Source: a virus
IMG/VR virus record: IMGVR_UViG_3300010354_000096
Span: 1-60,478 of that record
Length of the DNA: 60,478 bases
Direction: 5' to 3' (one strand)
Made by a program: the position numbers and the translations under genes. Of this stretch, positions 4,906-60,478 are shown piece after piece (position 1 is the stretch's first letter; each line of letters opens with the position of its first letter). Under the pieces are notes generated by a model. It had not been told where the DNA came from and did not search any database. It saw nothing but the letters and a program-made list of their open reading frames with translations.

Positions 4906-4918
4906 TTGGAGATAAAAT

Positions 4919-23539: not shown

Positions 23540-24805
23540 ATGGCGCAAATATTTTTCCCAATAACAACTATATCAGATCCATCCAATAATTATGGTTCTA
23601 CGGTTTATACAAATACACCAACACGGCCACTTTGGGGTTCTAATATTGGGTTTACATTAAACAATTTTTATACAAGTTCTTTACAAACAGCAACTTCTAA
23701 ACAATATTATTATGAGGTATGGGCATCCGCCTCGTTAACTTGTAATGATGAAAGAATGTTTGCAGTAGCATATGGAAATATAAGTGGATCTGGTTCATCA
23801 TACGATGCAGATGATACTTCATTGACTGGTGATACACCAACACGTGCTATATATAATCAGTACAGATTGCTTTGTTTGGATGGTGATGAAAATGGTTTAT
23901 TGTTATCTAGTTCAATTGCAGATATAACTGCATTTGCAGAATCAGGTGTGGTTGGTGGTTCGATCGTACCACTTAAACATTTTTATGCACTTTCAATTAA
24001 TCGTGATAGATTTGGTGATAAATTAGATCCAGGTAATTTCCAATTAAATATTGCAGAATTGAATGGTGCTAATTTTGAAATGCAATATCATACTGGAAGT
24101 AATGTTACTGTAAAATCTGGTGGTAAAGTAATTAAGTTAATTGATGATTCTGGTGATATTAGTAATAACGCATTAGAATATAATGAACTTATTGATGATC
24201 CAAAGGCATTATCAAAACCAAGAGCACTTGTAAGTGGAAGTCTTTCAAACGGAATTTATAATAATGGTTCTGTGGATACCGCTTTTAATGGTAGAGAAAT
24301 TTATGGAATGGTATATCCAAGTTTGGGTGTAGTATTATTGTCTGCTGATAAATTAAATTTGTCTGCTTCATTCAACAGTTTTACAGCAAGTAACGCTAAT
24401 GGTGATAATGCGTATAAGTTATTTACAGCAATTTCTGGTGCTTATGCAACTCATACCTACGGTTTCCAAGCTAGGTCAATTGATATAAAAAAATCTCAAC
24501 AATATTATGTTAGTGTAATGCCAACCCAAGAAGGGTTTGGAACATCAAATCCAACATGGGTATTACCACCTGATAGTGAAGACCCATATGTACCGGGTGG
24601 AACTGTTACTGGCTTAATAAAATATTCTGATATGCGATGGAAAGGTGATCCTAATACTGGTACACCTGGACAAACCGTTGTTTACGTAACTTCTATTGGT
24701 TTATATGATGATAATAAAAATTTATTAGCGGTTGCTAAACTAAATGAACCAATAAAACATGAGAATAACGATATGTTATCTGTTACAGTTAAATTGGAGT
24801 ATTAA
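23540..24805 (+). CDS. Virion structural protein, paralogue 1 of 5
   Basis: 421 residues, beta-rich. It shares with four following genes an N-terminal block (RMFAVAYGNISGSGSSYDA, then TRAIYNQYRLLCLDG), a middle block (GMVYPSLGVVLLSADKLNLS; AYKLFTAISGAY) and the C-terminal block TSIGLYDDNKNLLAVAKLNE. The C-terminal block occurs in structural proteins of large T4-like phages. Its place after the baseplate genes suggests a baseplate-rim or fibre-socket component. ATG at 23540 follows an A-rich leader. Confidence 0.65.
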   Translation: MAQIFFPITTISDPSNNYGSTVYTNTPTRPLWGSNIGFTLNNFYTSSLQTATSKQYYYEVWASASLTCNDERMFAVAYGNISGSGSSYDADDTSLTGDTPTRAIYNQYRLLCLDGDENGLLLSSSIADITAFAESGVVGGSIVPLKHFYALSINRDRFGDKLDPGNFQLNIAELNGANFEMQYHTGSNVTVKSGGKVIKLIDDSGDISNNALEYNELIDDPKALSKPRALVSGSLSNGIYNNGSVDTAFNGREIYGMVYPSLGVVLLSADKLNLSASFNSFTASNANGDNAYKLFTAISGAYATHTYGFQARSIDIKKSQQYYVSVMPTQEGFGTSNPTWVLPPDSEDPYVPGGTVTGLIKYSDMRWKGDPNTGTPGQTVVYVTSIGLYDDNKNLLAVAKLNEPIKHENNDMLSVTVKLEY

Positions 24806-41732: not shown

Positions 41733-41740
41733 AATAGTTG

Positions 41741-41750
41741 ATATTTATAT
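41741..41750 (+). promoter_or_regulatory. Candidate late-promoter box
   Basis: Exact ATATTTATAT in the 40-base gap, 22 bases before TTG 41773. Confidence 0.5.
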
Positions 41751-41772
41751 TGGAATTAATGAGAGAAAATAA

Positions 41773-44493: not shown

Positions 44494-44496
44494 CTC

Positions 44497-44506
44497 ATAT
44501 TTATAT
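44497..44506 (+). promoter_or_regulatory. Candidate late-promoter box
   Basis: Exact ATATTTATAT in the 49-base gap, 36 bases before ATG 44543. Confidence 0.5.
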
Positions 44507-44542
44507 TATGAAAGATTTAAAAATAAATTTGGATAGATAACA

Positions 44543-45829
44543 ATGTCAACATTTTATACTAACACGGCTAGTATTGATAATCTTATAGTAACATCGTCTG
44601 CAATACTATCTGGTAGTGTAACTGTATATGGTTCATTAACTGCAACTGCTTCGTATAGCACAACTGCAAGTTTTGCATTAAGTTCACCTGCTGTATATGA
44701 CTTCGGATCATTTGCAACCCCAACTGATGTTGGTGGTGGTGGTAATTTCGGTATTGTAACCGATGGTGATAAAGGAGATATTACAGTATCGAGTTCTGGA
44801 AGTATTTGGACTATTGATAATGATGCCGTAACTTATGCAAAAATACAAAATGTAACTACATCATCCGTATTACTCGGCCGTGCTACTGCTGGTGCCGGTG
44901 ATATTGAAGAAATATCACTTGGAAGTGGATTAACACTTTCTGGATCTACTTTATCAGCAGCCGGTGGTGGTGGTGGTAGTGGTGCTCAAATTCAAATAGA
45001 TACTATTACAAGTACAAGCACTTGGACAAAGCCCGCGTGGGCAAAGTATTTTAGAGTATATTTAGTTGGCGGTGCCGGTGCAGGTGGATCAGGTGCAAGA
45101 CGAGCCACTACATCTGCTAGATATGGAGGCGGAGGAGGTGCTCCCGCGTCATCCGTATGGATTGAATTAACTGATACACAGATAACAGGTAGTAGTGTAT
45201 CTGTAACTATTGGAGCAGGTGGAATATCTGGTTCATCTGTAACTACTGACGATACAAATGGTAATAATGGGGGCAATGGTGGTGCTACTAGTTTTGGATC
45301 ATTCGCAGCTACTTATACTGCTAACGGTGGTAGTGGTGGGACAACTTCTGCAGGAAGTAGAGGTTCTGCAGTTTCAGTAATTGGTAATTACGGTCCATCT
45401 TCAACATTAGGTGGTCAAAATGGTTCTAATACAAGTCCAGGAACAGTATCAGGATTATCTAATCAGACATTGAGTTATACTGGTAATTTTGGAGGTGCAG
45501 GTGGAGCAGGCGCTGCTGGGAGTAGCACTACAACTGCTGCAGGTGGGACTTATGATTATTGGTCTCCGATTCTCCCGAGTGTTGCGGTTTCATCAGGCGG
45601 AACCAATGGTGGTGATGGAAATGATGGTGTTTCATTTACTTATGGTTATTTTACCGTAGGAACACCAGGTGGTGGTGGTTCATATAAAACAGGACAGGCT
45701 ACCGGCAGAGGTGGTGATGCTTCTTATGGAGCAGGTGGTGGAGGTGGCGCAGCTTCTGACAATGGCTTTGCTAGTGGTCGAGGTGGTAATGGTGGCAATG
45801 GTATTTGTATAGTTGTAAGTATAGGATAA
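44543..45829 (+). CDS. Tail fibre with glycine-rich tip domain
   Basis: 428 residues. The first 150 form a short fibre with Ser/Thr-rich repeats (SGSVTVYGSLTATASYSTTA) and the widespread fibre phrase TSSVLLGRATAGAGDIEEIS. From about residue 150 to the end is a glycine-rich domain (YLVGGAGAGGSGARR; GAGGAGAAGSS; YGAGGGGGAASDNG; GGNGGNGICIVVSIG). Glycine-rich tip domains of this kind occur in fibre adhesins such as the gp38-type tips of T4-like phages, where they form packed polyproline-II helices with variable loops that contact the receptor. Local base composition is richer in G than in neighbouring genes because of Gly codons. Confidence 0.78.
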   Translation: MSTFYTNTASIDNLIVTSSAILSGSVTVYGSLTATASYSTTASFALSSPAVYDFGSFATPTDVGGGGNFGIVTDGDKGDITVSSSGSIWTIDNDAVTYAKIQNVTTSSVLLGRATAGAGDIEEISLGSGLTLSGSTLSAAGGGGGSGAQIQIDTITSTSTWTKPAWAKYFRVYLVGGAGAGGSGARRATTSARYGGGGGAPASSVWIELTDTQITGSSVSVTIGAGGISGSSVTTDDTNGNNGGNGGATSFGSFAATYTANGGSGGTTSAGSRGSAVSVIGNYGPSSTLGGQNGSNTSPGTVSGLSNQTLSYTGNFGGAGGAGAAGSSTTTAAGGTYDYWSPILPSVAVSSGGTNGGDGNDGVSFTYGYFTVGTPGGGGSYKTGQATGRGGDASYGAGGGGGAASDNGFASGRGGNGGNGICIVVSIG

Positions 45830-45833
45830 AAAT

Positions 45834-46064
45834 ATGAGATATGCTTTAATAAATGAAAATGGTTCGGTAGAAAATATAGTTATATGGGACGGTGTTTCAG
45901 AAGTACAATGGCCAGATGGATGTACTGTTGTACTCGCTACACAAGAACATGAAACGGAATTTAGTCAAAAAAATACACCAACTCAAACGGAACAATTACC
46001 ATTATCTGATGAAGAAATGGAATTACTTAGAAGTTTGTTAAATAGGATAAATCCTAATGGTTAA
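45834..46064 (+). CDS. Short tail-fibre assembly/accessory protein
   Basis: 76 residues, four bases after the glycine-rich fibre. The N-terminus MRYALINENGSVENIVIWDG and CTVVLATQE is the small beta motif common at the start of tail-fibre assembly (Tfa-like) and short phage accessory proteins. The C-terminus is a helix (LSDEEMELLRSLLNRI). By position it may chaperone or cap the adjacent fibre. Confidence 0.55.
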   Translation: MRYALINENGSVENIVIWDGVSEVQWPDGCTVVLATQEHETEFSQKNTPTQTEQLPLSDEEMELLRSLLNRINPNG

Positions 46065-46072
46065 CGATAAAA

Positions 46073-46082
46073 TTATTTATAT
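46073..46082 (+). promoter_or_regulatory. Candidate late-promoter box (variant)
   Basis: TTATTTATAT in the 39-base gap, 21 bases before ATG 46104. It differs from the common box at one position. Confidence 0.38.
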
Positions 46083-46103
46083 TGAATTTATACGAGTGTT
46101 TGT

Positions 46104-47588
46104 ATGCCACTAAGATTAAGACGAGGTACGGATTCAGCCAGAACAAGTATAACACCTGTTCAAGGTGAGCCCATATACACCACGGATACTAAAAAATTAT
46201 TTATAGGTGACGGAACAACTGCGGGTGGTGTTGAGGTTGGTGGAACACCCATAAGTTCATCTTATGCAACTACTGCATCTTATGTACTAAATTCTGTGAG
46301 TTCTTCATTTGCATCAACATCTGCAACCGCATCTTATGTTCTAAATTCTGCAACCGCATCTTATGTTCTGAACGCAGTAAGTTCTTCGTTTGCAACAACC
46401 TCAACAACGGCAACAACAGCATCTTATGTTTTACAAGCAGTAAGTTCATCATTTGCAACTAATTCGATGACTGCTTCATATTTTGGTGGAACTGTAACAT
46501 CAGCATCATTTGCTCAAACAGCATCTTATGTTCTTAATGCGGTTAGTTCATCTTTCTCTACAAATTCTATGACCGCTTCATACTACGGTGGAGGAGTAAC
46601 ATCAGCATCATTCGCAACAACTTCTGTAACCGCATCTTACGTATTGAACTCAGTTAGTTCTTCACGTGCAACAACAGCAGGGAGTGCATCAGTAGCAACT
46701 ACGGCATCTTACGCAACAACTGTTGAATTTCCACTAAATAACGTAGCGGGTGCTTCGGGATTAACAAGTTTCTTTATTAATCAAGACCTTAATCAGGATC
46801 CATCTGGTAACAGAAATATAACATGGGCTGATTTATTAACGGATATTGCAGGTACAAATTTAGCAAGTGATGGTGATTCTATTAATTTGAATACAACAAT
46901 TACAGGTTTAACTTCTGTAACTTCAACCTCATTTACTGGCTCATTACAAGGAACTGCAACTACTGCTTCATATTTTGGTGGAACAGTAACATCAGCGTCA
47001 TTCGCAACAACTTCTGCAACCGCATCATATGTTCTAAACGCAATTAGTTCATCATACGCATTAACAGCATCTTATGCAGCAAATGCAGGTGGTGGTGGAG
47101 CAACTGTAACTAATCCTGGAAATAATTATGTTATAACATCAGACGGCTCATCGGGTGGTTTAGTTGGTGAAAGTAATCTTCTATTTGACGGTACAAATAT
47201 GACGATTACCGGTAGTATTTATATGACTGGTTCTTTATATAGGCCTACGTTAGTTGATTGGGAAGAAAAATATAGCTCACCATCAATATCAGGTGGTTCT
47301 TTAACATTGGATTTATTACAAGGAAATGTTTTTAGTGTAACTATTGATGCTCTTGTAGCAACATTGAGTATAACAAATCCACCTGCTCTAAATAATGCAG
47401 GTAGTTTTGTTTTAATTACAACAGGTAATGGAAGTCCTTATCCATTTGTATGGTCAAACGCAGTAACTTGGTCAGGTGGTTCAGCACCAACTCTTTCAAG
47501 TGGAAGTGGAAAAAAAGATATTTATGGATTTATTTCGTTGAATCAAGGAACTAATTGGTATGGTTTTATTGGTGTTCAAAATGTTTGA
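46104..47588 (+). CDS. Tail fibre with Mtd-N-type start and TASY shaft
   Basis: 494 residues. The N-terminus PLRLRRGTDSARTSITPVQG, then TKKLFIGDGTTAGGVEVGG, is the widespread fibre N-terminal module (as in Mtd-type and hyaluronidase-type fibres). Residues about 50-210 and 285-330 are TASY-type repeats. The C-terminal 110 residues form a beta domain, SFVLITTGNGSPYPFVWSN, VTWSGGSAPTLSSGSG, ending WYGFIGVQNV, a common fibre tip of unknown ligand. The stop is eight bases before the RCC1 giant. Confidence 0.72.
   Translation: MPLRLRRGTDSARTSITPVQGEPIYTTDTKKLFIGDGTTAGGVEVGGTPISSSYATTASYVLNSVSSSFASTSATASYVLNSATASYVLNAVSSSFATTSTTATTASYVLQAVSSSFATNSMTASYFGGTVTSASFAQTASYVLNAVSSSFSTNSMTASYYGGGVTSASFATTSVTASYVLNSVSSSRATTAGSASVATTASYATTVEFPLNNVAGASGLTSFFINQDLNQDPSGNRNITWADLLTDIAGTNLASDGDSINLNTTITGLTSVTSTSFTGSLQGTATTASYFGGTVTSASFATTSATASYVLNAISSSYALTASYAANAGGGGATVTNPGNNYVITSDGSSGGLVGESNLLFDGTNMTITGSIYMTGSLYRPTLVDWEEKYSSPSISGGSLTLDLLQGNVFSVTIDALVATLSITNPPALNNAGSFVLITTGNGSPYPFVWSNAVTWSGGSAPTLSSGSGKKDIYGFISLNQGTNWYGFIGVQNV
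46246..47085 (+). repeat. TASY-type shaft repeats (second array)
   Basis: Repeats coding for TASYVLNSVSSSFATTS-like units, dense at 46255-46710 and again at about 46960-47085. Very similar to the array in the fibre at 41773. Confidence 0.75.
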
Positions 47589-47596
47589 GGTTAAAA

Positions 47597-50500
47597 ATGA
47601 TTAAAAATGTTTTACTACACGTTTCAAGATCTTATACTCCTTATGTAAAATCAAGGTTAATATATGGAAACGGTCTTGCTAGTTATGGTGAATTGGATAA
47701 TGATACGCTTTTATATACTATGAATCAAGTAGATGGTAATGCAACAACTGTATCTGCCAGTATTACAAGTCATACTACCAACGCTGCTTTATTTGTTAAA
47801 TCTAATAATTCATTATGGGGATTTGGTGGCCAACCTTCATACGAGTTGGGTGATGGTACAACCACTACTCGCTCATCTCCTGTTCAAATAGGAACACTTA
47901 CCAATTGGAAATCGGTATCAGTTGGGTATTCACATACAATAGCAGTTAAAACAGATGGTACTCTTTGGAATTGGGGACATTCTTCTTCTTTATCAAGTTT
48001 ACCAATTATTTTACGCAGCTCACCGATTCAAGTAGGTGGTGACACTAATTGGACATTTGCTACGGCAGGTGACAGTTATTCAATGGCAATTAAAACCGAT
48101 GGTACTCTTTGGGGTTGGGGTAGTAATGCGTCTGGTTCATTAGGAAATGGTCAATCTGCATTTACATTTGGTAAAGTAGTATATGGAGATAGTTATGTAT
48201 CTGCTTCTGCTGGTGAATCCCATACCCTTGCTATTAAATCTGATGGAACATTGTGGGGATTTGGCGATGATAGTAGTGGTAGATTGGGTCAAGTACAATC
48301 ATCTAATTTTTTTAATAAAGTATCTATGCCGTATGGTACAATAGTATCAGCATCTGCAACCTGGGCAACATTGTCAGGAAACAATATTTTTGTTATTGCA
48401 ATAAATTCTGATGGAACAATGTGGGGTTGGGGAGCTAATGGAAATTATAACTTAGGAGATGGTACTATTACAAATAAATCACTACCGATTCAAATAACCA
48501 CAAGTAATAAATGGACAGACGTTAAAACTGGAAATTCACATACTATTGCAATACAATCAGACGGTACGCTATGGGGTTGGGGTACTAATAATGGAGGTAA
48601 ATTAGGTGACGGAACAACTACTACTCGTTCTTTACCAGTGCAAATTCCAGGTACAAGTAATTGGACTAAAATAGCAGTTGGAGGAGATAATAGTAATGCT
48701 ATTCGTTCCGATGGTACACTATGGGGATGGGGTGCAAACAATGTTGGACAAATAGGTGATGGTACAGTTGTGTCACGTTCATCACCTGTTCAAATAGGTA
48801 CATTAACTGACTGGTCAAAGGTAGATGCAGGACTTTCACATACAATGGCAATTAAAACCGATGGTACACTATGGGGTTGGGGATTAAATACAAGTGGACA
48901 ATTAGGTGATACTTCATTAGTTAATCGTTCAAGTCCAGTTCAGATTGGTACTCTTACTAATTGGAGTAAAGTGTATGGTGGCTCTTCTTGGACGATGGCA
49001 ATAAAAACTGATGGTACACTATGGGGTTGGGGTGGTAATGCAGACGGTAATTTAGGCGATGATACATCGGTTTCACGTTCTTCACCTGTTCAAATAGGTA
49101 CTCTAACTAATTGGGCAAATGTTTCTACTCGTGGTTATGTATTTACTATTGCAACAAAGACCGACGGTACTCTTTGGGCGTGGGGAAATGATTCAAATAG
49201 CTATTATTTAGTTGGTAATATGTTTTCTGTTACTCGCTCGTCACCCGTTCAGTTGGGTACATTGACAAATTGGACAAATGTTTTTGGTGGACAAGCCATT
49301 TCTTTACCTTTAAGTTCGGACGGTTTATATGCAGTAGCAGGTAGTAATTTTTTAGGTACTGGTTATAAAGTTACAATACTTAACGTTAGTTCACCTGTAC
49401 AAATTGGAGATAATAAAAATTGGCGAAATGTTTCAACAACAAGATTGTCTGTTCTTGCTTTAAAAACCAATGGTACATTATGGGCATGGGGTAGTAATAC
49501 AGCTGGTATTTTAGGAACTAATAATACAACCCAATATACTTCGCCAGTTCAAGTGGGCACACTCACAAATTGGAACTTTGTATCTAATGGGTATTCACAT
49601 ACAATGGCAATTAAAACCGATGGTACACTATGGGGTTGGGGTAGTAATTTTAGAGGAAATATCGGTGATGGTCAATCGTATGGTAGTATAAATAAAATTA
49701 ATGTTCAAATAGTAACTCCAACTGAATATGATACGAGCACTAACCATACGTTAGTTGTTAGAAACGATTATACACTATGGGCATGGGGATTAAATACAAC
49801 TGGTCAATTAGGTGATAATTCATTTATTGCTCGTTCAAGTCCAATTCAAATTGGAACTGATACTAATTGGTCAACTGTTTCTACTGGCGGTGGATTTTCT
49901 CATGGTATTAGAACAGACGGTACACTTTGGAGTTGGGGTACTGGTGGATCTGGTGTACTTGGTGATGGGACTGTTGTTGCTAAACTCTCTCCTGTTCAAA
50001 TTGGCACATTAACTAATTGGAGTAAAGTATCAAGCAACACAAACAATTCATTTGCAATAAAAACAGATGGTACACTTTGGGCGTGGGGATTTAATGGAAG
50101 TGGTTATACATTAGGATTATTTACTGATACCGCTAATCGTTCAAGTCCAACACAAGTTGGAACTGGTAACACATGGTCATCTGTATCTGCTGGTCTTTCA
50201 CACGGTATGGCGATTAAGTCCGATAACACACTATGGGGTTGGGGTTTTAATAGTAATGGACAAATAGGTGATAATAGTGTCAGTACAAGATTTTCTCCAA
50301 TTCAAATAGGTACATTAACTAACTGGGCATCAGTAGCATCTGGTCAATCACATACTATGGCGGTAAAGACTGACGGTACACTATGGGGATGGGGAATTAA
50401 TAACCTTGGACAAGTAGGTGATACTACTACTGTGTCACGTTCAAGTCCAGTTCAAATTGGGACATTAACTAATTGGTCAAAGGTTGCAGCTGGTACAAAT

Positions 50501-53500
50501 GTCACACACGCTGTTAAAACTGATGGTACATTATGGGCATGGGGTGATGGTTCTTCTTATACATTTGGTGCAGGTAATGCTATATCTACATCACGTTCAT
50601 CACCAGTTCAAGTTGGTGTTCTTACAAATTGGACAAATGTAAAAAATACACGAGATCACGTTGTAGCTATTAATAATAATGAATTATATGAAGCAGGTAA
50701 TAATATAACAGGTTGGTCATCCGATAAATCATCACCAGTTCAAGTTGGAAGTGGTAATGATTGGACGTATGTAGATGCTGGTAATGATTACACTATGGCT
50801 GTAAAATCGAATGGTACATTATGGGCATGGGGCTTAAATACGGATGGTAATTTGGGCGATGGTACAATTCTTCCAAAAGATTCACCTGTTCAAATTGGAA
50901 CTCTAACTAATTGGGCAAAAGTTTCAACAGGAAGATTACTTAACAGAGGAACTCTTGCTTTAAAAACCGATGGAACTCTATGGGCATGGGGGCAAGCTGC
51001 TTCTGGACAATTAGGCACAAATAATCTAACCTCATATTCTTCACCAGTTCAAATTGGTACACTTACAAATTGGTCTAATATTAGTATGGGTTATGGGTGG
51101 GCTTTTGCAACAAAAAATGACGGTACTTTATGGGGCTGGGGGCAGAATTCTATTGGAGAATTAGGAAATGGATTACCAACTGCAGTTTCATCACCTGTTC
51201 AAATAGGGGGTGCAACAAATTGGTCATTTGCTTATGCTGGTGTTAATTTACATAGTATTGCTGTGAAAACAAATGGAGAACTGTATAGTACAGGTGCAAA
51301 CAATAACAATTTACTGTTACTTGGCCGTTCAACTACACAAGAAGTAATTCCAATTAAAATTGGAACTGATACAAATTGGTCAAAGGTGTATGCAGGACAA
51401 TGGGATACATTTGGTATTAAAACCGATGGAACTCTATGGGCTTGGGGTAAAAATTCTGGTGGTAAATTGGGATTGGGTGATACGACTTCAAGAAATTCAC
51501 CAGTTCAAGTTGGAACTGATACTTGGTTGAAAGTTGTAAACGCTATAAGTCATACAGTTGGTTTAAAATCGGATAATAGTCTTTATGTGTGGGGTACTGA
51601 TAATCAAGGGTCTCTTGGTAGAGGTGCTGTTAATTTAACTCGTTTTACTCCAATAGATGAAGCAGGGTGGTCTGACATAACTGCAGGTGGTTTATCATAT
51701 ACAATGGGTATTAAAACTAATGGTACACTATGGGCTTGGGGTGGTAACAATAGTTCAGGCCAATTAGGTACAAATAACACAACCACATATGCTTCACCTG
51801 TTCAAATTGGAACTCTAACTAATTGGTCAAAGGTTGTAGCTGGACAGCAACACACAACTGCAATAAAAACAGATGGTACACTATGGGGTTGGGGTTGGAA
51901 TTCAACCGGACAAGTAGGTGATAATACTACTGTGACACGTTCAAGTCCAGTTCAAATTGGAACAGATACAAATTGGGCAACAGTTGATACATACGAAAGT
52001 AGTACAATGGCTATTAAAACCAATTGGACACTATGGGGTTGGGGATTAAATACAAGTGGACAATTAGGTGATACTTCATTAGTTAATCGTTCAAGTCCAG
52101 TTCAGATTGGTACTCTTACTAATTGGTCAACTGTTTCTGTTGGCGCAAATGGCGGAGTAGCGGTTAAAACAGATGGTACTTTGTGGAGTTGGGGGAGTGG
52201 TTTATATGGTGCATTAGGTGATAATACAACTGCTGATAAATCTTCGCCTGTTCAAATTGGAACTCTAACCAACTGGGCTAGTTGTGCACGAGCAACATAT
52301 TCTTCATTAGCAGTTAAAACCGATGGTACACTATGGGCATGGGGTATGAATTGGAATGCCCAACTTGGTATTGATCAACATTACAACGCATTTGGTGAGG
52401 TGTCAGGTACTACTCAAGTAACTGCTGCATCAACTGGTGAAGGAACTGCAAGTCATTATATAAAAACAGACGGTACGCTATGGGGTTGGGGAGTAAATAA
52501 TGGTAATGGTGTAGTTGGTGATAATACAAATGCTACTAAATCATCTCCAGTACAAATCGGTACAGATAATACATGGTCAAAAATAAAAGAAAATGCTCAT
52601 GTCATGGCGTTAAAAACCAATGGAACTCTTTGGAGTTGGGGTTATAACGGTAATGGAGAACTTGGACAAAATGATAAGGCAGCTCGTTCAAGTCCAGTTC
52701 AAGTTGGTACTGATATGAATTGGTATGATTTTGCTGTTGGTAGTGGCGGTGTTACGTTAGCGGTTAAAACCGATGGTACTCTTTGGAGTTGGGGTTATAA
52801 TTTTAATGGACAACTTGGACAGAATGATACAATATCTCGTTCAAGTCCAGTTCAAATAGGTACTTTAACTAATTGGAGTAAGGTTGCAACCGGTGGTAAT
52901 ATGGGTTTTGCAATAAAAACCGATGGTACACTATGGGGTTGGGGAATAAATAGTTCAGGTCAATTAGGTGATAATTCATTAATTGCTCGTTCATCGCCTG
53001 TTCAAATAGGTACATTAACTAATTGGTCATCGATTGCGGCAGGAGCAGGAACACATACCATTGCTGTAAAAACCGATGGAACTCTATGGACATGGGGACA
53101 AGGTACTTCTGGTCAATTAGGTAATGGTATTGATACAAATAATAGATCATTTCCAGTTCAAGTTGGTTTTGATACTAATTGGTCAAAAGTTTCTGCTGGT
53201 AACGCTTCTAGCTTTGCTATAAAGACAGACGGTAGTCTTTGGAGTTGGGGAAACTATATTCAAGTAGTAGGCGCAGCGTCTTCAAATCGCTCCTCACCTG
53301 TTCAAATTGGTGGCTCAAGTGATTGGTTAGAAATAATAGCAACAACTGATGGTAGTTCATATAATCAACCATTTTTAGCAATTAATACTTCTAATAAATT
53401 ATATACCGCAAGTGGAAATAATTTTTATGATTATGCATTACTGCGACCAATAACACGTTCAAGTCCAGTTCAGGTTGGAACTTTAACTAATTGGTCTGGT

Positions 53501-56110
53501 GTTGATATTGTAAACCATACAGTAGGTCTTAGTGGGTATAGCACGATTGCTTATAAAACAGATGGTACATTATGGGCATGGGGTGATAATCAAGTATATC
53601 ATCTTGGTACAGGAGAATCTACAACTGCATATAGGTCATCACCTGTGCAAATATCAAATGTATCAAACATTAATAAACTTAGTATTAATAAAACACATTC
53701 TTTAGCAAAGAATACTGCTGGTATTGTTTACTATACTGGTACTCAAGATTTAATAATTCGTGGTAATGTTACACCAAAATCCTCACCTGTTCAACTTTCA
53801 TCTGAGAGTTGGTCTGATATATCAGTATCGAATGCAAATTCTATGGCTGTAAAATCTAATGGTACACTATGGGGTTGGGGATTGAATCAAACATACGGTA
53901 CACTTGGTATTGATGGTGATGCAACTACGAATCGTTCAAGTCCAGTTCAAGTTGGTACTAAAACAAATTGGCGTATTGCAGGTAGTGGTTATCAATTTTC
54001 AATTGGAGTTGATAATTCTAATAATTTATTTAGTACAAATTATGGTGCTGTACTTATAAAATCGTCACCAATACAAATAACATCTGCTGTAAATTGGAGT
54101 TCATTGTCAGCGGGAAATTCATTCACTATGGGTGTAAAAACCGATGGTACGCTATGGGGTTGGGGACAAAATAATATAGGTCAATTAGGTGACAATACAG
54201 TCATACCACGTTCAAGTCCAATTCAAATAGGTACTCTAACTAATTGGTCAAAGGTTACTGCGGCACAATCACAAACCATAGCAGTTAAAACCGATGGTAC
54301 ACTATGGGCATGGGGATATAATGGACTTGGGGCTTTAGGAACTGGCAATACAACAAATCGTTCAAGTCCAGTTCAGATTGGTACTCTTACTAATTGGTCT
54401 GGTATATGGACTATGTGGGATTCAAGTTTTGCAATAAAAACAGATGGTACTTTATGGTCATGGGGTTATAATGGTTTTGGACAGTTAGGAACTGGTAATA
54501 CACTTGGACTTTCCTCTCCAGTTCAAGTTGGTACATTAACTAATTGGTCAAAGGTGTTTAACGGTCAATCATCACAAACCATGGCAATAAAAACCGATGG
54601 AACTCTGTGGGGTTGGGGTTATAATCTTTATGGTATGGTTGGTGATGGAACAACTACTAATCGTTCAAGTCCAGTTCAAATCGGTACTCTTACTACTTGG
54701 TCAGGTCTTGTAACAGGAAATAATCTTACAGTTGCCGTTAAAACTGATGGTACTCTTTGGAATTGGGGTGTTGGTGGAGTTTTTGGTAATGCAAAACTAA
54801 GTACAGCAAGGTCAAACCTTATGCAATTAAGTGAAAGGAATTGGCAATCAGTAGCTGCTTCAGGTGGTCATGTAATTGCTTTAGCAACCGATGGTACACT
54901 ATGGAGTTGGGGAAGTGTTAATAATGCTGGACAACTTGGACACGGTGAGTTAGTAATTAAGTCCGCTCCATTCCAAATTGGATTTCTTAATACATGGGCA
55001 AGTGTTGCTGCTGGTAATGGTATTAGTGGTGCAATAAAAACTGATGGTACATTGTGGACATGGGGACAGAATGGGTATGGTGGATTAGGAACTAATAACA
55101 CAGCGCTTCGTTCAAGTCCAGTTCAGATTGGTACTGATACTAATTGGTCTAAAATTTCTATGAGTGAATATGATACTATAGCAGTTAAAACCAATGGTAC
55201 TCTGTGGGCTTGGGGTTATAATTTTTATGGAGAATTAGGTGACGGAACAGCCGTGAGTAGATCATCACCAGTTCAAATTGGTACTGATACTAATTGGTAT
55301 GATGTTGCTACTGGTGTTTATTTTACTCTTGCAACAAAAACCGATGGTACTCTGTGGGCATGGGGATTAAATACTGCAGGTCAATTAGGACAGAATAATA
55401 CGGTAACTGCACGTTCAAGTCCAGTTCAAATTGGAACTCTGACTAATTGGTCAAAGATTACAGGTGGTACGTATAACGCCATGGCAATAAAAACCGATGG
55501 AACTCTTTGGGGTTGGGGTTATGGTGATTCTGGTAGATTGGGTACTAATGATACAATTAGTCGTTCCTCACCGGTTCAAATAGGTACTTTAACTAATTGG
55601 TCAAGTGTTTCTGCAGCAGTAACAAATCAAGTTCATGCTATTAAAACAGATGGTACACTATGGGCGTGGGGTATTAATACGAATGGTGCTTACGGTAACG
55701 GTGATACAATAACTCGTTCAAGTCCAGTTCAAATCGGTACTTTAACTAATTGGACTACAGTTTCTTCTGCTACGTCAAACGTAATGGTAATAAATTCAAG
55801 TTACAAAATGTACTCAGCTGGTGCAAACAATGGAAACTTGGGTTATTGGATTTATGACGGTAATAATAGGTCTTCTCCTATACAAGTTGGAGCTGATGCA
55901 AATTGGACAAGTGCTATGAGTGGTTTTAGTGGTGCTGATATTATAAGAACAGACGGTACACTATGGTCATGGGGTAATAACAATTTTTATGGACAAATAG
56001 GTGATGGGACTACAGTAAACAAATCATCACCAGTACAGGTTGGCTCACTTACTTTTTGGAAAACAATAAGTACAGGATATAATCACAGAGTGGGAATAGT
56101 TGAATATTAA
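47597..56110 (+). CDS. Giant RCC1-repeat protein, probable tail adhesin
   Basis: 2837 residues from ATG 47597, which has GAGG seven bases upstream; a longer frame from 47555 lies inside the previous gene and is rejected. After some 20 residues the whole chain is RCC1 units of about 50 residues: W-x-x-V-x-x-G-x-x-H-x-x-A-I-KTDGTLWGWGxNxxGQLGDxT-x-x-x-RSSPVQIGTLTN. By eye I count 55 whole units, plus a half-unit at the N-terminus (IYGNGLASYGELDND) and the complementary half at the C-terminus (WKTISTGYNHRVGIVEY), which makes 56 blades, or eight seven-bladed propellers. At least seven units are degenerate (for example ELYEAGNNI, KLYTASGNN). There is no signal peptide or membrane segment. The position at the end of the fibre cassette suggests a virion adhesin; binding partner unknown. 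Confidence 0.82.
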   Translation: MIKNVLLHVSRSYTPYVKSRLIYGNGLASYGELDNDTLLYTMNQVDGNATTVSASITSHTTNAALFVKSNNSLWGFGGQPSYELGDGTTTTRSSPVQIGTLTNWKSVSVGYSHTIAVKTDGTLWNWGHSSSLSSLPIILRSSPIQVGGDTNWTFATAGDSYSMAIKTDGTLWGWGSNASGSLGNGQSAFTFGKVVYGDSYVSASAGESHTLAIKSDGTLWGFGDDSSGRLGQVQSSNFFNKVSMPYGTIVSASATWATLSGNNIFVIAINSDGTMWGWGANGNYNLGDGTITNKSLPIQITTSNKWTDVKTGNSHTIAIQSDGTLWGWGTNNGGKLGDGTTTTRSLPVQIPGTSNWTKIAVGGDNSNAIRSDGTLWGWGANNVGQIGDGTVVSRSSPVQIGTLTDWSKVDAGLSHTMAIKTDGTLWGWGLNTSGQLGDTSLVNRSSPVQIGTLTNWSKVYGGSSWTMAIKTDGTLWGWGGNADGNLGDDTSVSRSSPVQIGTLTNWANVSTRGYVFTIATKTDGTLWAWGNDSNSYYLVGNMFSVTRSSPVQLGTLTNWTNVFGGQAISLPLSSDGLYAVAGSNFLGTGYKVTILNVSSPVQIGDNKNWRNVSTTRLSVLALKTNGTLWAWGSNTAGILGTNNTTQYTSPVQVGTLTNWNFVSNGYSHTMAIKTDGTLWGWGSNFRGNIGDGQSYGSINKINVQIVTPTEYDTSTNHTLVVRNDYTLWAWGLNTTGQLGDNSFIARSSPIQIGTDTNWSTVSTGGGFSHGIRTDGTLWSWGTGGSGVLGDGTVVAKLSPVQIGTLTNWSKVSSNTNNSFAIKTDGTLWAWGFNGSGYTLGLFTDTANRSSPTQVGTGNTWSSVSAGLSHGMAIKSDNTLWGWGFNSNGQIGDNSVSTRFSPIQIGTLTNWASVASGQSHTMAVKTDGTLWGWGINNLGQVGDTTTVSRSSPVQIGTLTNWSKVAAGTNVTHAVKTDGTLWAWGDGSSYTFGAGNAISTSRSSPVQVGVLTNWTNVKNTRDHVVAINNNELYEAGNNITGWSSDKSSPVQVGSGNDWTYVDAGNDYTMAVKSNGTLWAWGLNTDGNLGDGTILPKDSPVQIGTLTNWAKVSTGRLLNRGTLALKTDGTLWAWGQAASGQLGTNNLTSYSSPVQIGTLTNWSNISMGYGWAFATKNDGTLWGWGQNSIGELGNGLPTAVSSPVQIGGATNWSFAYAGVNLHSIAVKTNGELYSTGANNNNLLLLGRSTTQEVIPIKIGTDTNWSKVYAGQWDTFGIKTDGTLWAWGKNSGGKLGLGDTTSRNSPVQVGTDTWLKVVNAISHTVGLKSDNSLYVWGTDNQGSLGRGAVNLTRFTPIDEAGWSDITAGGLSYTMGIKTNGTLWAWGGNNSSGQLGTNNTTTYASPVQIGTLTNWSKVVAGQQHTTAIKTDGTLWGWGWNSTGQVGDNTTVTRSSPVQIGTDTNWATVDTYESSTMAIKTNWTLWGWGLNTSGQLGDTSLVNRSSPVQIGTLTNWSTVSVGANGGVAVKTDGTLWSWGSGLYGALGDNTTADKSSPVQIGTLTNWASCARATYSSLAVKTDGTLWAWGMNWNAQLGIDQHYNAFGEVSGTTQVTAASTGEGTASHYIKTDGTLWGWGVNNGNGVVGDNTNATKSSPVQIGTDNTWSKIKENAHVMALKTNGTLWSWGYNGNGELGQNDKAARSSPVQVGTDMNWYDFAVGSGGVTLAVKTDGTLWSWGYNFNGQLGQNDTISRSSPVQIGTLTNWSKVATGGNMGFAIKTDGTLWGWGINSSGQLGDNSLIARSSPVQIGTLTNWSSIAAGAGTHTIAVKTDGTLWTWGQGTSGQLGNGIDTNNRSFPVQVGFDTNWSKVSAGNASSFAIKTDGSLWSWGNYIQVVGAASSNRSSPVQIGGSSDWLEIIATTDGSSYNQPFLAINTSNKLYTASGNNFYDYALLRPITRSSPVQVGTLTNWSGVDIVNHTVGLSGYSTIAYKTDGTLWAWGDNQVYHLGTGESTTAYRSSPVQISNVSNINKLSINKTHSLAKNTAGIVYYTGTQDLIIRGNVTPKSSPVQLSSESWSDISVSNANSMAVKSNGTLWGWGLNQTYGTLGIDGDATTNRSSPVQVGTKTNWRIAGSGYQFSIGVDNSNNLFSTNYGAVLIKSSPIQITSAVNWSSLSAGNSFTMGVKTDGTLWGWGQNNIGQLGDNTVIPRSSPIQIGTLTNWSKVTAAQSQTIAVKTDGTLWAWGYNGLGALGTGNTTNRSSPVQIGTLTNWSGIWTMWDSSFAIKTDGTLWSWGYNGFGQLGTGNTLGLSSPVQVGTLTNWSKVFNGQSSQTMAIKTDGTLWGWGYNLYGMVGDGTTTNRSSPVQIGTLTTWSGLVTGNNLTVAVKTDGTLWNWGVGGVFGNAKLSTARSNLMQLSERNWQSVAASGGHVIALATDGTLWSWGSVNNAGQLGHGELVIKSAPFQIGFLNTWASVAAGNGISGAIKTDGTLWTWGQNGYGGLGTNNTALRSSPVQIGTDTNWSKISMSEYDTIAVKTNGTLWAWGYNFYGELGDGTAVSRSSPVQIGTDTNWYDVATGVYFTLATKTDGTLWAWGLNTAGQLGQNNTVTARSSPVQIGTLTNWSKITGGTYNAMAIKTDGTLWGWGYGDSGRLGTNDTISRSSPVQIGTLTNWSSVSAAVTNQVHAIKTDGTLWAWGINTNGAYGNGDTITRSSPVQIGTLTNWTTVSSATSNVMVINSSYKMYSAGANNGNLGYWIYDGNNRSSPIQVGADANWTSAMSGFSGADIIRTDGTLWSWGNNNFYGQIGDGTTVNKSSPVQVGSLTFWKTISTGYNHRVGIVEY
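48866..48964 (+). repeat. 99-base exact duplicate, copy 1
   Basis: Identical to 52028-52126 over 99 bases by direct comparison, within the RCC1 gene. It covers two-thirds of a blade (from TLWGWGLNTSGQLGD to the next NW). The flanks differ on both sides. Confidence 0.9.
52028..52126 (+). repeat. 99-base exact duplicate, copy 2
   Basis: Second copy of 48866-48964. Just before it the usual KTDGTLW reads KTNWTLW, as if the junction of a conversion or duplication fell there. Confidence 0.9.
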
Positions 56111-56191: not shown

Positions 56192-57196
56192 ATGAGTAAA
56201 AAGGCTATGCATCCATTGGATTTGGCATTGGAAGCATCTATTAATGGTAATCCAGAAATTAGTGAAGACATTCTGAGAAATCAACCACAGAATGATACAC
56301 GAGTTTTATTCAATTTGGGTTGGCATGAAATGCGAAAAGGCAATATGAAGAAAGCGTTTGAACATTTCAACTACGGTAGATACATAAATGTGTTTGGTCT
56401 TCCTGCTTTACCAGGAAAAATTTGGAAAGATGAAGATTTGACTAATAAAACACTTCTTTTTAGATGCGAAGGTGGATATGGCGATCAAATTCTTAACTTT
56501 CGTTTTGCTAAACGATTTGAAGAGATGGGTGCAAAGGTATTAGTTTCATGTGCTCCAGAATTAAAAGAGTTATTTTCAAGACATGGATTTATTTGTGTTG
56601 ATAATGAAGTAGTTATGGGTTGCCACTATGATTATTGGATTCCTGCAATGTCCGCTGCCTATGTTTTAGATATGGAGTATGAGGATTTAGATGGAAAACC
56701 TTTTTTATTTACGAAAGAAAAAAGAAATTTATTTTCTAAGAAAGGAAATTTGAAAGTTGGTATTCGTTGGAGTGGTTCACCTGAGTTTGAAGATGAACAA
56801 CATAGAAGATTTAATCCAGAATTAATGATAGACTTACATGATGTTCCAAATACAACATTTTATTCTTTACAAAGAGATGAAAATTGTGTAGATGGACTTC
56901 CATTTGGCGATATGCGTGATCAAATGAAAACATGGGACGATACTGCTTCTATTATTGCGGGATGTGATGTAATAATTACTTCATGTACTTCAATCGCACA
57001 CCTTTCCGCTGCTATGGGAGTTCCAACTTGGATAGTTACACCGATTATGCCTTACTACACATGGGTAGTACCAGGTGATACTTCACGATGGTATGACTCA
57101 GTAAGATTATTCAGACAAGAAAAATATGGAGAATGGGAAGCACCATTCGCTAAAATCAGAGAAGAACTCACTAAATTAGCGGAAAACCACAAATGA
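56192..57196 (+). CDS. TPR-glycosyltransferase (GT9/heptosyltransferase-like)
   Basis: 334 residues. Residues 1-65 resemble a short TPR-like helical region (VLFNLGWHEMRKGNMKKAFE). The C-terminal half has the GT-B, glycosyltransferase family 9-like pattern: KVGIRWSGSPEFEDEQHR at about 188-206 and a nucleotide-sugar-binding segment DVIITSCTSIAHLSAAMGVP near 260-280. The N-terminal domain has RCEGGYGDQILNFRFAKRF (phosphate-loop-like). It would transfer a sugar from an activated donor; the acceptor could be virion fibres or host glycan. Its ATG follows AAAAAAAGG. It overlaps the next gene by four bases (ATGA). Confidence 0.72.
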   Translation: MSKKAMHPLDLALEASINGNPEISEDILRNQPQNDTRVLFNLGWHEMRKGNMKKAFEHFNYGRYINVFGLPALPGKIWKDEDLTNKTLLFRCEGGYGDQILNFRFAKRFEEMGAKVLVSCAPELKELFSRHGFICVDNEVVMGCHYDYWIPAMSAAYVLDMEYEDLDGKPFLFTKEKRNLFSKKGNLKVGIRWSGSPEFEDEQHRRFNPELMIDLHDVPNTTFYSLQRDENCVDGLPFGDMRDQMKTWDDTASIIAGCDVIITSCTSIAHLSAAMGVPTWIVTPIMPYYTWVVPGDTSRWYDSVRLFRQEKYGEWEAPFAKIREELTKLAENHK

Positions 57197-57771
57197 TGCC
57201 ACATTATTATCACTACATACATGGATGGTTTGTCCAAGAGAATGTATACACTCAGATGGTTGATTCTTGCAATGATACAGATAATTACCATTTTGTTGAA
57301 ATAGGTAGTTGGAAAGGAAGAAGTTCTTGCTTTATGGGTGTAGAAATACTAAATAGCGGTAAAAAAATTAAATTCGATTGTGTTGATACGTGGTTAGGTT
57401 CAGAAGAACATACAAATCCTAAATCTTCACACTATGAACCACTTCTTGAAATACCAGACGGACTTTACAATGAATTTATACATAACATTGAACCTATTAA
57501 TAAGGTTGTTAATCCGATAAGAATGACTTCGGTAGAAGCATCTAAACTATATGAAGATGAAAGTTTAGATTTTGTTTATATAGATGGTGCACACGATTAT
57601 GTTAGTGTGAAGCAAGATATTGAACATTGGTATCCGAAAGTAAAAAAAGGTGGTTATATTGCTGGCGATGATTTTGATATTTGGGCAGGTGTTCCTGCTG
57701 CGGTAAGAGAATGTTTTGGAAATGATTTTAATATAATAAGAGGTATAACATGGTTGAAAAAGAAAATTTAA
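57193..57771 (+). CDS. Class I SAM-dependent methyltransferase (Methyltransf_24-like)
   Basis: 192 residues. SAM-binding motif I is FVEIGSWKGRSSCFMG (about residues 35-50), with an acidic residue after strand 2 (KFDCVDTW) and the motif-IV-like segment LDFVYIDGAHDYVSVKQDI (about 127-145), followed by KKGGYIAGDDFD. These are typical of the small methyltransferases found with sugar-modifying genes. Start overlaps the glycosyltransferase stop; its end overlaps the next gene by 22 bases. It probably methylates the sugar or protein target of the flanking transferases. Confidence 0.78.
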   Translation: MMPHYYHYIHGWFVQENVYTQMVDSCNDTDNYHFVEIGSWKGRSSCFMGVEILNSGKKIKFDCVDTWLGSEEHTNPKSSHYEPLLEIPDGLYNEFIHNIEPINKVVNPIRMTSVEASKLYEDESLDFVYIDGAHDYVSVKQDIEHWYPKVKKGGYIAGDDFDIWAGVPAAVRECFGNDFNIIRGITWLKKKI

Positions 57772-58538
57772 GTGTTGATATTATATTAAGAACACATGAT
57801 TTTATAGATATTCACGCTTCTCCAAGTGGTAGATATTGTGGAACTGATAAAACAACTCTTATTTGTAAATGTGTAAAGTCCTTAGTGAAGTCAGCAAACA
57901 ATTACGATGGTAAAGTTAGATTTATTTGGCTTGATGACCATTCTTCACAATCAACCATTGATAAATTACACGTTATATTTTCAGAATCAAAACATGAAGT
58001 TGAATTTGTTCCGTTGGAATTACGTGGATGGAACGCTTCTGGTTATGAACAATTTGAAAGAGGAAGGGCTTCAGATGCAGATTTAGTTTATTTTGTGGAA
58101 GATGATTATTTACATTTTCCAACAGCAATAGAAGAAATGGTTGATGGGTATAGAGAGTTTAAAGAAAATCTTGGTTTAGAAGTTGCAATTCACCCGTTTG
58201 ATGATCCAGATAACTACTTACCACAATATATTGCGCCATGTAGAGTTGTTTTGGGTAAGAACAGAAGATTTAGAACAAATGAATATAGTACATTTGTATT
58301 TTTATGTTCACCTGAATTAATTAGAAAACATTGGAGTAGATTTTATACACTCGCAACAGAATATATGACTGAGTGGGGTGAGCACAATAAAATCCATGAA
58401 GGAACAACTATTAACCATATTTGGCGGTGGGAAGCAAAATTATTTACGCCAATACCATCACTTGCACTTCACATGGGCTTTGAAGAACAAAAAGACAAGT
58501 ACATTGATTGGGAAGAACTATGGAAATCGGTAGGTTAA
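57750..58538 (+). CDS. GT-A fold glycosyltransferase
   Basis: 262 residues. VDIILRTHDF (strand 1) and RFIWLDDHSSQSTIDKL (about 52-68) match the nucleotide-binding half of a GT2-type fold. VYFVEDDYLHFPTAIEEM (about 112-129) contains the acidic metal-binding motif (EDD in place of DxD). The C-terminal part includes THIGEGT-like KIHEGTTINHIW and a conserved-looking LALHMGFEEQ. It completes the glycosyltransferase-methyltransferase-glycosyltransferase unit. Donor and acceptor are not deducible. Confidence 0.68.
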   Translation: MVEKENLSVDIILRTHDFIDIHASPSGRYCGTDKTTLICKCVKSLVKSANNYDGKVRFIWLDDHSSQSTIDKLHVIFSESKHEVEFVPLELRGWNASGYEQFERGRASDADLVYFVEDDYLHFPTAIEEMVDGYREFKENLGLEVAIHPFDDPDNYLPQYIAPCRVVLGKNRRFRTNEYSTFVFLCSPELIRKHWSRFYTLATEYMTEWGEHNKIHEGTTINHIWRWEAKLFTPIPSLALHMGFEEQKDKYIDWEELWKSVG

Positions 58539-58583: not shown

Positions 58584-59075
58584 ATGCATTATGTACACGT
58601 AGAAAACGGTGAAATAAAAGGATTTCCAATGCCGTTGCCTAAATCTTGGGGTAATATATCAAACTTTGATTTACTCGATGACCAGTCATTACGTCAGTAC
58701 GGTTGGTATAAATACACATTTATTCCTGCACAACAAACTGAAACAAATTATACAGATGGTTCAACTGTTGTAATAACTGAAGAAGGTGTAATTGAATATC
58801 AACTTCTTAAAGAAAAAACCGAAGAACAAATTCAAAAAGAAATAGAAAGCCGTTGGGAAAATATTCGTTCTCAAAGAAATGTGTATTTGTTAGAGTCCGA
58901 TTGGACACAACTCGAAGATTCTCCATTATTAGCACAAGAAAAAGAAGAATGGAGAGTATATCGTCAAGCTTTGAGAGATATAACAAATTTTGCAACACCA
59001 GACGAAGTTGTATGGCCAACAAAACCATCTAATGAATTAAGAACTTCGGTACAACCGAATGGAGAAGTTTCTTGA
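58584..59075 (+). CDS. Tail-fibre assembly chaperone (Phage_tail_APC-like)
   Basis: 163 residues. The N-terminus MHYVHVENGEIKGFPMPLPK is the small beta module of fibre assembly proteins. The C-terminal half carries the family block: RSQRNVYLLESDWTQLEDSP, then EEWRVYRQALRDITNFATPD and VVWPTKP (about residues 92-155). Such proteins help fold or trimerise the fibre and are often encoded at the end of the fibre cluster. Its client could be any of the five large adhesins upstream. The stop overlaps the next TTG start by three bases, with a shared GGAG at 59061. Confidence 0.78.
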   Translation: MHYVHVENGEIKGFPMPLPKSWGNISNFDLLDDQSLRQYGWYKYTFIPAQQTETNYTDGSTVVITEEGVIEYQLLKEKTEEQIQKEIESRWENIRSQRNVYLLESDWTQLEDSPLLAQEKEEWRVYRQALRDITNFATPDEVVWPTKPSNELRTSVQPNGEVS

Positions 59076-60478
59076 AAAATAAAGTATTACAACTTATAAA
59101 AGAAATGAATCTTGCTATCTTCAATGAAAATGATTTGATAGATAAGCAGATTATTGTTTTATATCCAGGTACTTTTAATCCAATGGCTTTGCACCATAAA
59201 GAAGAATATGATAGATTGTGCCGTAAGTTTGGTTCAGATAATGTATACATTGTTACCGATGATATGCAAGATGCTATAAGAAAACCACTTACGTTTGCAG
59301 AAAAAAATGCTATAATGAAGCGTCATAATGTGAAGAATGTTATTAAAACAACAAATCCGTATAACCCACTCGAATTGTTGGAAGACTTCGATCCAACGCA
59401 TACCGTGGTTATATATGCCGTTGGGAAAGATAATATCGGTAAGTTAAATCAATTCAAACGGTTAACTAAGTATAATAAAGCATCTAATTTACCGTACAAA
59501 GATATTCAGAATCCTTATTTATATTATACAATTACAAATCATGTTGTTTATAATATACCTAGCTTTGGTCAAATGAATCAGGAAAATATTCAAAAGGCAT
59601 TGGGTGATAGAACAGCTAAATTAACAGAATTAAAATCTCGTTTTATTTCTATTTTTGGTTGGTTTGATGCTCAGATTTTTAATACAGTTATTGCAAGAAT
59701 GAATATAAAACGTGGTGAAATGATTGAAGTGAAAAAGAAAAAAGAAGGTGAGTTAAGACCACTTCACATGATAACAAGAAAGTTTTGGGATAAAGTATTT
59801 GAATCTGTTATAACAGAAGAAATAATAGCTTATCACAGAAGTTCAAAAAATTTTCATAAGTTTGATATATCAAATGTTAGTGTTGATAGTAATAAACAAA
59901 GGTATGGATATGGGCTTTATTTTTCTGATAATATACCACATAATCAGTACGGTGATTACTTATATAAAGTAAAACTTTTTAAAGATAAAAAAGATTATGT
60001 TTTGATAGATATGAAGAGTCCAGTTGAAGAAAATATAGTTAATAAAATTGTAGAAGCGTTAGATAGGTTGAATAAAAAATCTGATGAAGTTATTGAATTT
60101 GCATATAGTGGTTATCTTTTTTATAAAACGTTATCAAGAATTTTAGGTGGTGATAAATACGCTTCTTTATTTTTATTTAATAATGGCGTTGATGGTTTAA
60201 AAAATAGGATAAGTAATAATTGGAATGATTATATATTATTTAATGATGATTCTATAAATATTGAAGATATTAAATATGACAAAGTATTTGAAAATGTTAT
60301 AACAGAAGAAATAGAACAAATAAATGAAGTAGCAACATTACCAACTGGTTTATTGAAAGAAATAGAACCAGTTGCCGTAGAACTTTTTAAGGAAATTGCT
60401 GATTTAATACGATTAGATTCAAGTTTTCTTGGATTTAAGCGTATTTTGCTTCCTAGAGTAAAATCTGGATTTGAACAT
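59072..60478 (+). CDS. Nucleotidyltransferase fused to an ADP-ribosyltransferase-like domain (3' end outside window)
   Basis: The frame is open for 469 codons from TTG 59072 (GGAG eight bases upstream) to the last base, so the C-terminus is missing. Residues 25-165 resemble the cytidylyltransferase/NMNAT superfamily: VLYPGTFNPMALHHKEEYDR is the nucleotide-binding strand and a variant of the (T/H)xGH loop, with HTVVIYAVGKDN near 110-121. Residues 250-400 resemble the ADP-ribosyltransferase found in polyvalent phage proteins: AYHRSSKNFHKFD, QRYGYGLYFSDN, YGDYLYKVKL and NNGVDGL...WNDYILFNDDSINI. The 12-residue motif DKVFE[SN]VITEEI flanks this domain on both sides (240-251 and 403-414). I infer an enzyme packaged or made early for host takeover, analogous to T4 Alt; the ligand and activity are not shown. 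Confidence 0.65.
   Translation, partial: MKNKVLQLIKEMNLAIFNENDLIDKQIIVLYPGTFNPMALHHKEEYDRLCRKFGSDNVYIVTDDMQDAIRKPLTFAEKNAIMKRHNVKNVIKTTNPYNPLELLEDFDPTHTVVIYAVGKDNIGKLNQFKRLTKYNKASNLPYKDIQNPYLYYTITNHVVYNIPSFGQMNQENIQKALGDRTAKLTELKSRFISIFGWFDAQIFNTVIARMNIKRGEMIEVKKKKEGELRPLHMITRKFWDKVFESVITEEIIAYHRSSKNFHKFDISNVSVDSNKQRYGYGLYFSDNIPHNQYGDYLYKVKLFKDKKDYVLIDMKSPVEENIVNKIVEALDRLNKKSDEVIEFAYSGYLFYKTLSRILGGDKYASLFLFNNGVDGLKNRISNNWNDYILFNDDSINIEDIKYDKVFENVITEEIEQINEVATLPTGLLKEIEPVAVELFKEIADLIRLDSSFLGFKRILLPRVKSGFEH
59789..59824 (+). repeat. 36-base direct repeat, copy 1 (before the ART-like domain)
   Basis: Encodes DKVFESVITEEI. Matches 60278-60313 at 33 of 36 bases. Confidence 0.85.
60278..60313 (+). 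repeat. 36-base direct repeat, copy 2 (after the ART-like domain)
   Basis: Encodes DKVFENVITEEI. Both copies contain I-T-E, fitting the (L/I)-x-E cleavage rule of the T4 prohead protease. Confidence 0.85.

Follow-up and report, generated by a model that had tools for sequence, protein, structure and literature searches.

The results showed that the DNA stretch analysed here (the window, a 60,478-base viral contig of IMG/VR without end repeats) encodes a protein of 56 RCC1 blades, which very probably fold into eight consecutive seven-bladed propellers within one chain of 2837 amino acids, that related phage proteins carry their blades almost always in multiples of seven, and that the glycosyltransferase gene found just downstream adjoins an RCC1 gene in nearly every locus in which it was counted. 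Taken as a whole, these features are best explained, in a judgement slightly on the favourable side of even, by a multi-propeller adhesin of the tail locus which is glycosylated by the product of the neighbouring gene and varies by whole propellers. An earlier note on this DNA had described the repeat protein and proposed the eight propellers; the glycosyltransferase cassette, the stepwise sizes of the relatives, and a single RCC1 propeller in a second protein of the window were absent from it.

The open reading frame runs on the plus strand from an ATG at 47597 to a stop codon that ends at 56110, and its product, of the place and length given in the earlier note, has a mass of about 300 kDa. 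RCC1 repeats extend along nearly the entire chain: the Pfam RCC1 and RCC1-like families were both matched with E = 0, RCC1 in 35 stretches, and the scores were 1031 bits for PF00415 against a cut-off of 21.7 and 1571 bits for PF25390 against a cut-off of 150. Looped profile segmentation gave 55 whole units of about 50 amino acids plus two complementary terminal half-units, and the count of 56 given in the earlier note, a multiple of seven (8 x 7), was thus reproduced. A short leader (MIKNVLLHVSRSYTPYVKSR..., 47597 to 47662, plus strand), similar in the relatives (M..IKNIL...SK..P), precedes the first half-blade; the N-terminal half-unit is degenerate (RLIYGNG..., LIYGNGLASYGEL...), and the complementary C-terminal half-unit is WKTISTGYNHRVGI. 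The longest exact DNA repeat within the gene is shorter than 100 bp, and repeat collapse in a short-read assembly is therefore no obvious worry.

Within the 2837-residue protein, the degenerate units do not fall on any seven-unit register, as had been observed before, and units seven apart showed no significant extra likeness (p = 0.12). The reading as eight propellers instead follows from the ladder of multiples of seven in the relatives, from linkers that occur every seven units in two of them, from a set of seven units inserted in another protein, and from a predicted closed ring. In the first of the two proteins with linkers (L113), a Pro-rich linker separates the trailing from the leading half-unit after unit 7, and in the second (L037) long linkers stand after units 7, 14, 21, and 28, mostly at or near the half-unit junction. 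In proteins without linkers, the positions of inserts did not mark propeller boundaries. If the boundaries of the window protein are placed from the N-terminal half-unit and the seven-unit register, the propellers, all on the plus strand, would comprise residues 23-374 (47663 to 48718), 375-726 (48719 to 49774), 727-1074 (49775 to 50818), 1075-1428 (50819 to 51880), 1429-1778 (51881 to 52930), 1779-2136 (52931 to 54004), 2137-2485 (54005 to 55051), and 2486-2837 (55052 to 56107), the last of which would be closed by the C-terminal half-unit.

To express the register in numbers, the use of residues by blade position was compared, and a period of seven was found with z of about 7 over 27 proteins, and with z = 4.9 among 16 non-redundant proteins (0 of 300 shifts), for which moduli 5, 6, 8, and 9 gave 0.6 to 1.0. 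When the first and last propellers were left out, z fell to 1.7 (14 of 300 shifts), no better than modulus 9; the register is therefore seen mainly in the terminal propellers, and the internal boundaries listed above are putative. The AlphaFold model of residues 1-1200 was weak (mean pLDDT 61.9, pTM 0.41), and its best part, at about residues 292-642, was a closed seven-blade ring out of the N-terminal register. Segment 302-642 of this overall weak model matched UVR8 with Z 43.7 and 2.1 A over 331 residues, RCC1 itself (1a12) with Z 37, and BLIP-II (1jtd) with Z 27. The RCC1 ring fold is thus supported. The earlier interpretation stands in part: the eight propellers have good support, and the exact limits of the rings are not fixed by the model. 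The protein shares with the RCC1/BLIP-II lineage (UVR8, HERC RLDs, RCC1, and BLIP-II) the four-stranded blade of about 50 residues, seven per ring; what sets it apart is that it would hold eight rings per chain with hardly any linker, that it is encoded in a phage tail locus, and that its relatives are sized in sevens.

A 1700-residue tail protein of the same window (17505 to 22607) carries a set of exactly seven RCC1 units (residues 717-1075; 19653 to 20729, plus strand), that is, a single propeller. Homologues of 1345 residues (e.g., L220, L222-L224, and L270) do not have these seven units, and the alignment resumes on both sides of them; such a set of seven is therefore a module that can move in these phages. 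The RCC1 part of this protein carries the PHROG label "regulator of chromosome condensation" (DNA metabolism), which, together with the DNA condensation speculated for the RCC1-like proteins of phage phAPEC6 (PMC7247149), would speak for a DNA-condensing protein. We nevertheless consider this role extremely improbable, as the genes lie in tail-fibre loci adjoining tail chaperones in the window, in its relatives, and in named cyanophages. Moreover, BLIP-II and UVR8 are propellers of the RCC1 fold with unrelated roles.

To determine how blade numbers are distributed in the family, 31 viral loci were fetched with the RCC1 protein and, independently, 80 with the downstream glycosyltransferase, and the set was enlarged by further searches. 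One counting program was used for every complete open reading frame, with the N-terminal and C-terminal halves scored as one blade, and a first pass gave 7, 14, 21, 28, 35, 42, 49, and 56 blades. After fixed filters (no insertion of 20 residues or more, short flanks, and a score per unit of at least 60), 247 distinct complete frames were retained, of which 194 had 7 units, 18 had 14, four had 21, eight had 28, five had 35, three had 42, three had 49, and one had 98, leaving 11 with other counts. Inspection by hand of the off-ladder frames gave 56 units for L061, 21 for both L416 and L421, and probably 35 for L378, and the remaining exceptions were L120 and L369 with 6, L388 with 8, L022 with 97, and L455 with about 53. 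The apparent odd counts of L043 (19 units) and L045 (5 units) were rejected, their contigs or frames being broken on the 5' side. Altogether, about 46 to 47 of the 49 multi-propeller proteins, the window protein included, are multiples of seven; because the counted sequences share ancestry, this excess is stated without a single p-value, but the multiples recur across several lineages. Two of the proteins, of 5159 residues and 98 units (L011, 5884 to 21363) and of 5117 residues and 97 units (L022, 6172 to 21525), are nearly identical save for one 42-residue deletion corresponding to one unit, and both terminate in GGGFIKNI, followed by a methyltransferase-fused glycosyltransferase; the count of 97 is either a true exception or an assembly error. 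The relatives nearly always hold whole propellers, from one to eight in number and, in one protein, probably 14.

Blade number changes rapidly in comparison with the neighbouring gene. At least 17 changes are required among the 38 rows of the glycosyltransferase tree, and phages in which the neighbour gene is 94% to 98% identical carry 21, 35, 42, or 49 blades. For one pair of glycosyltransferases with 97.7% identity, the blade numbers are 35 and 21 and the RCC1 proteins are only 55% identical; for another pair with 97.4% identity, the numbers are 49 and 42 and the RCC1 proteins only 61% identical. The most similar blade pairs within proteins did not prefer seven-step distances (19 top pairs at offset 0 modulo 7 in comparison to 23.4 expected), and a seven-unit run common to L059 and L053 is displaced by 11 units. 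As similar blades show no preference for steps of seven, block copying alone fails to account for the counts; since single blades move in every register while the totals hold at multiples of seven, the data favour selection of closed rings over block duplication. The opposing possibility, that the chain forms a superhelix or rings of mixed blade number and that the multiples of seven come from duplication of whole-propeller blocks, would fit the AlphaFold ring lying in a register other than the N-terminal one and the few counts that are not multiples of seven, but we give it little credence, as blades show no seven-step similarity although the totals recur in several lineages, and the predicted ring closes at seven. 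That the propellers are seven-bladed, with 56 blades in the window protein, multiples of seven in the relatives, and exactly seven in the inserted set, is accordingly held with high confidence.

The location of the gene provides the evidence on its role. The RCC1 gene closes a run of fibre genes on the plus strand (37368 to 47588), consisting of an S74-chaperone fibre (37368 to 41732), the frame at 41773 to 44493, a Gly-rich fibre (44543 to 45829), and an Mtd_N fibre (46104 to 47588), and it is followed by the glycosyltransferase, a methyltransferase (Methyltransf_24/TylF-like, 192 amino acids, 57193 to 57771), a GT2-like glycosyltransferase with a weak Pfam match below the cut-off (262 amino acids, 57750 to 58538), and a tail assembly chaperone (Phage_tail_APC, 163 amino acids, 58584 to 59075), all on the plus strand. 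The remaining genes, among them those for baseplate wedge and hub-lysozyme proteins, belong to a tailed phage. The gene context suggests that the 56-blade protein may act as a tail adhesin, and a surface protein borne on the tail seems likely. Elsewhere in the window, a family of 73-nt direct repeats (D11) was found in five copies between 24682 and 32738, in successive large frames at 24682, 25809, 29254, 30946, and 32666, which suggests paralogous domains in these frames, and short repeats between 43028 and 47080 (families D9 and D10) encode TASYVLNAVSSSFA-like stretches in two fibre genes. The last frame (59072 to 60478) is truncated where the contig stops; its N-terminus gives a weak cytidylyltransferase-like match (E 0.026), and in 51 of 85 loci the frame is conserved close to the cassette.

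Within the tail locus, the propellers might also serve as a spacer or a surface coat, setting the length of an arm or forming a glycan-covered shield, with other fibres of the locus doing the binding. The near absence of linkers, the variation of propeller number among close relatives, the adjoining glycan enzymes, and the several fibre-like genes just upstream are all compatible with such a function. However, many relatives are single propellers of about 375 amino acids, often encoded by several genes side by side, which is unlike a spacer, and the RCC1 gene diverges much more quickly than the gene beside it, as a binding surface would; we therefore regard the spacer or coat as rather unlikely in comparison with the adhesin.

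The conserved partner gene (56192 to 57196, plus strand) encodes a probable glycosyltransferase of 334 amino acids with TPR repeats and a heptosyltransferase-like GT-B domain. The product shares 81% to 85% identity with its counterparts in the nearest relatives, and about 38% with the C-terminal portion of sulfotransferase fusions which adjoin RCC1 genes elsewhere. Its structure model was confident (pLDDT 92.7): a helical, TPR-like N-terminus precedes a GT-B domain of the heptosyltransferase type, which matched the GT9 structure 3tov with Z 16.8 and 2.9 A over 238 residues, followed by TibC (4rap, Z 16.1) and WaaF (1psw, Z 16.0), the next rows being at about 13 and below. As the Pfam Glyco_transf_9 score was 12.3 bits against a cut-off of 22, the enzyme is not filed as GT9. 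Searching the PDB sequences with the glycosyltransferase profile returned only designed TPR proteins with E 0.07 or worse, and NCBIfam gave no match for either the RCC1 protein or the glycosyltransferase. The columns D98 and H270 are invariant, in stretches which we take to resemble the heptosyltransferase signatures. In four loci (L017 at 3760 to 5529, L018, L019, and L026), a sulfotransferase domain forms the N-terminal part of a fusion with the RCC1-linked glycosyltransferase, and single-propeller RCC1 genes flank the fusion on both sides in L017, L018, and L026.

Pairing was counted over 167 distinct glycosyltransferase loci with at least 1 kb upstream. An RCC1 gene lies within 300 bp on the same strand in 153 of them, directly upstream in 150; the RCC1 gene is elsewhere in the locus in nine, and none was found in five. 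In the reverse direction, the glycosyltransferase is absent from some RCC1 loci. In the phage collection, the RCC1 protein was matched by 36 of 50,697 records, and four of the five records with the glycosyltransferase also carry RCC1, including the cultured cyanophages S-SRM01 and BUCT-ZZ01, where both stand beside tail-fibre genes. Of 80 homologues fetched from assemblies of bacteria and archaea, 13 adjoin RCC1 genes, all of them closer ones with at least 36% identity. The S-SRM01 locus (L120, 216625 to 235605) comprises three RCC1 genes, the TPR glycosyltransferase, a 2OG-Fe(II) oxygenase, a sulfotransferase, a beta-1,4-glycosyltransferase, and a nucleotide-sugar epimerase beside a long tail fibre gene.

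Such adjacency might merely reflect a common exchangeable tail or accessory region, the cassette acting on host surface sugars, phage DNA, or another fibre. Known glycosyltransferases of phages act on DNA, host serotype, and virions (PMC12619734), and the cassette does vary in content: in 85 loci with room for the companions, the methyltransferase was present in 25, the GT2-like enzyme in 38, and the tail chaperone in 63, a sulfotransferase or another methyltransferase accompanies the glycosyltransferase in other loci, and five glycosyltransferase loci have no RCC1 gene. Against this, the glycosyltransferase is the constant element, with the RCC1 gene next to it at the frequency given above, RCC1 genes stand on both sides of it in several loci, and the pairing extends to cultured cyanophages. 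A different target therefore appears unlikely, though less so than the spacer or coat, and whether the RCC1 protein itself is the acceptor we put at about an even chance.

A mechanism consistent with these observations would be as follows. Eight seven-bladed RCC1 propellers would stand in a row with almost no linkers, and each ring would probably close where a leading half-unit (LWGWG...SPVQIG strands) pairs with a trailing one (W..V..G..HT.AI strands). Most likely projecting from the tail, the protein would use its variable loops to bind structures of the host surface. Whole propellers would be gained and lost in the fast-changing phage family, which would alter reach and valency but preserve the seven-blade ring. 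Inside the infected cell, the downstream TPR glycosyltransferase most likely adds sugar to the propeller protein, in the manner in which TibC glycosylates TibA (PMC4358343, eLife 2014), and the methyl, sulfo, and second-sugar enzymes would elaborate the glycan, which could protect the long chain, tune binding, or mask the protein. TibC and the heptosyltransferases of AIDA-type autotransporters share with the window enzyme the GT-B fold and a gene adjoining that of a repeat-rich surface protein; the window enzyme differs in its N-terminal TPR, its phage origin, its identity of only 12%, and its proposed acceptor, a propeller instead of an autotransporter passenger. Phage-encoded enzymes likewise glycosylate the virion in mycobacteriophages (Freeman et al. 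2023, as cited in PMC12619734), where the targets named are capsid and tail tube rather than a propeller protein.

The separate elements of this proposal are already known. RCC1 repeats in phages have been described (PMC7247149), and RCC1-like proteins occur in jumbo phages and cyanophages (phAPEC6, 121Q, S-SRM01, and BUCT-ZZ01); in S-SRM01 and BUCT-ZZ01 their genes have tail-fibre genes and a TPR glycosyltransferase as neighbours, as in the window, and the proteins have no assigned function and one or two propellers each in comparison to eight in the window protein. Pereira and Lupas (2022, PMC9218822) identified RCC1/BLIP-II as a major group among highly repetitive propellers amplified from single blades; their survey gave a maximum of 47 blades, a number compatible with several combinations of rings, and they noted the lack of a counting system in amplification. 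The window family likewise places many similar blades in one chain, but has 56 (and 98) diverged blades and a natural ladder of sevens. Pairs of a glycosyltransferase and an adhesin are also known (PMC4358343). No account of a phage family of one to eight propellers in sevens with a near-obligate glycosyltransferase was found in the open-access papers searched, and those on RCC1 tail proteins contained no described tail adhesin of such architecture, in agreement with what the earlier note had supposed. Our broader proposal, offered tentatively and with somewhat less than even confidence, is that these phages possess a modular glycosylated receptor-binding system of no earlier description, in which a widespread family of tail adhesins varies its reach and valency by gain and loss of entire seven-blade propellers (one to eight, probably up to 14) and receives a sugar coat from a dedicated TPR glycosyltransferase, linked to it near-obligately, with blades shuffled in every register and the methyl, sulfo, and second-sugar enzymes variable.

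The family offers a natural experiment in how the number of repeats in a protein is controlled, since close relatives stand at 21, 35, 42, 49, and 56 blades with almost nothing between, and, as the totals remain multiples of seven despite recombination of blades in all registers, selection for closed rings becomes directly open to study. It also ties a specific glycosyltransferase to a large class of proteins from tail loci that catalogues still list as regulators of chromosome condensation, a link which the cultured cyanophages S-SRM01 and BUCT-ZZ01 make testable.
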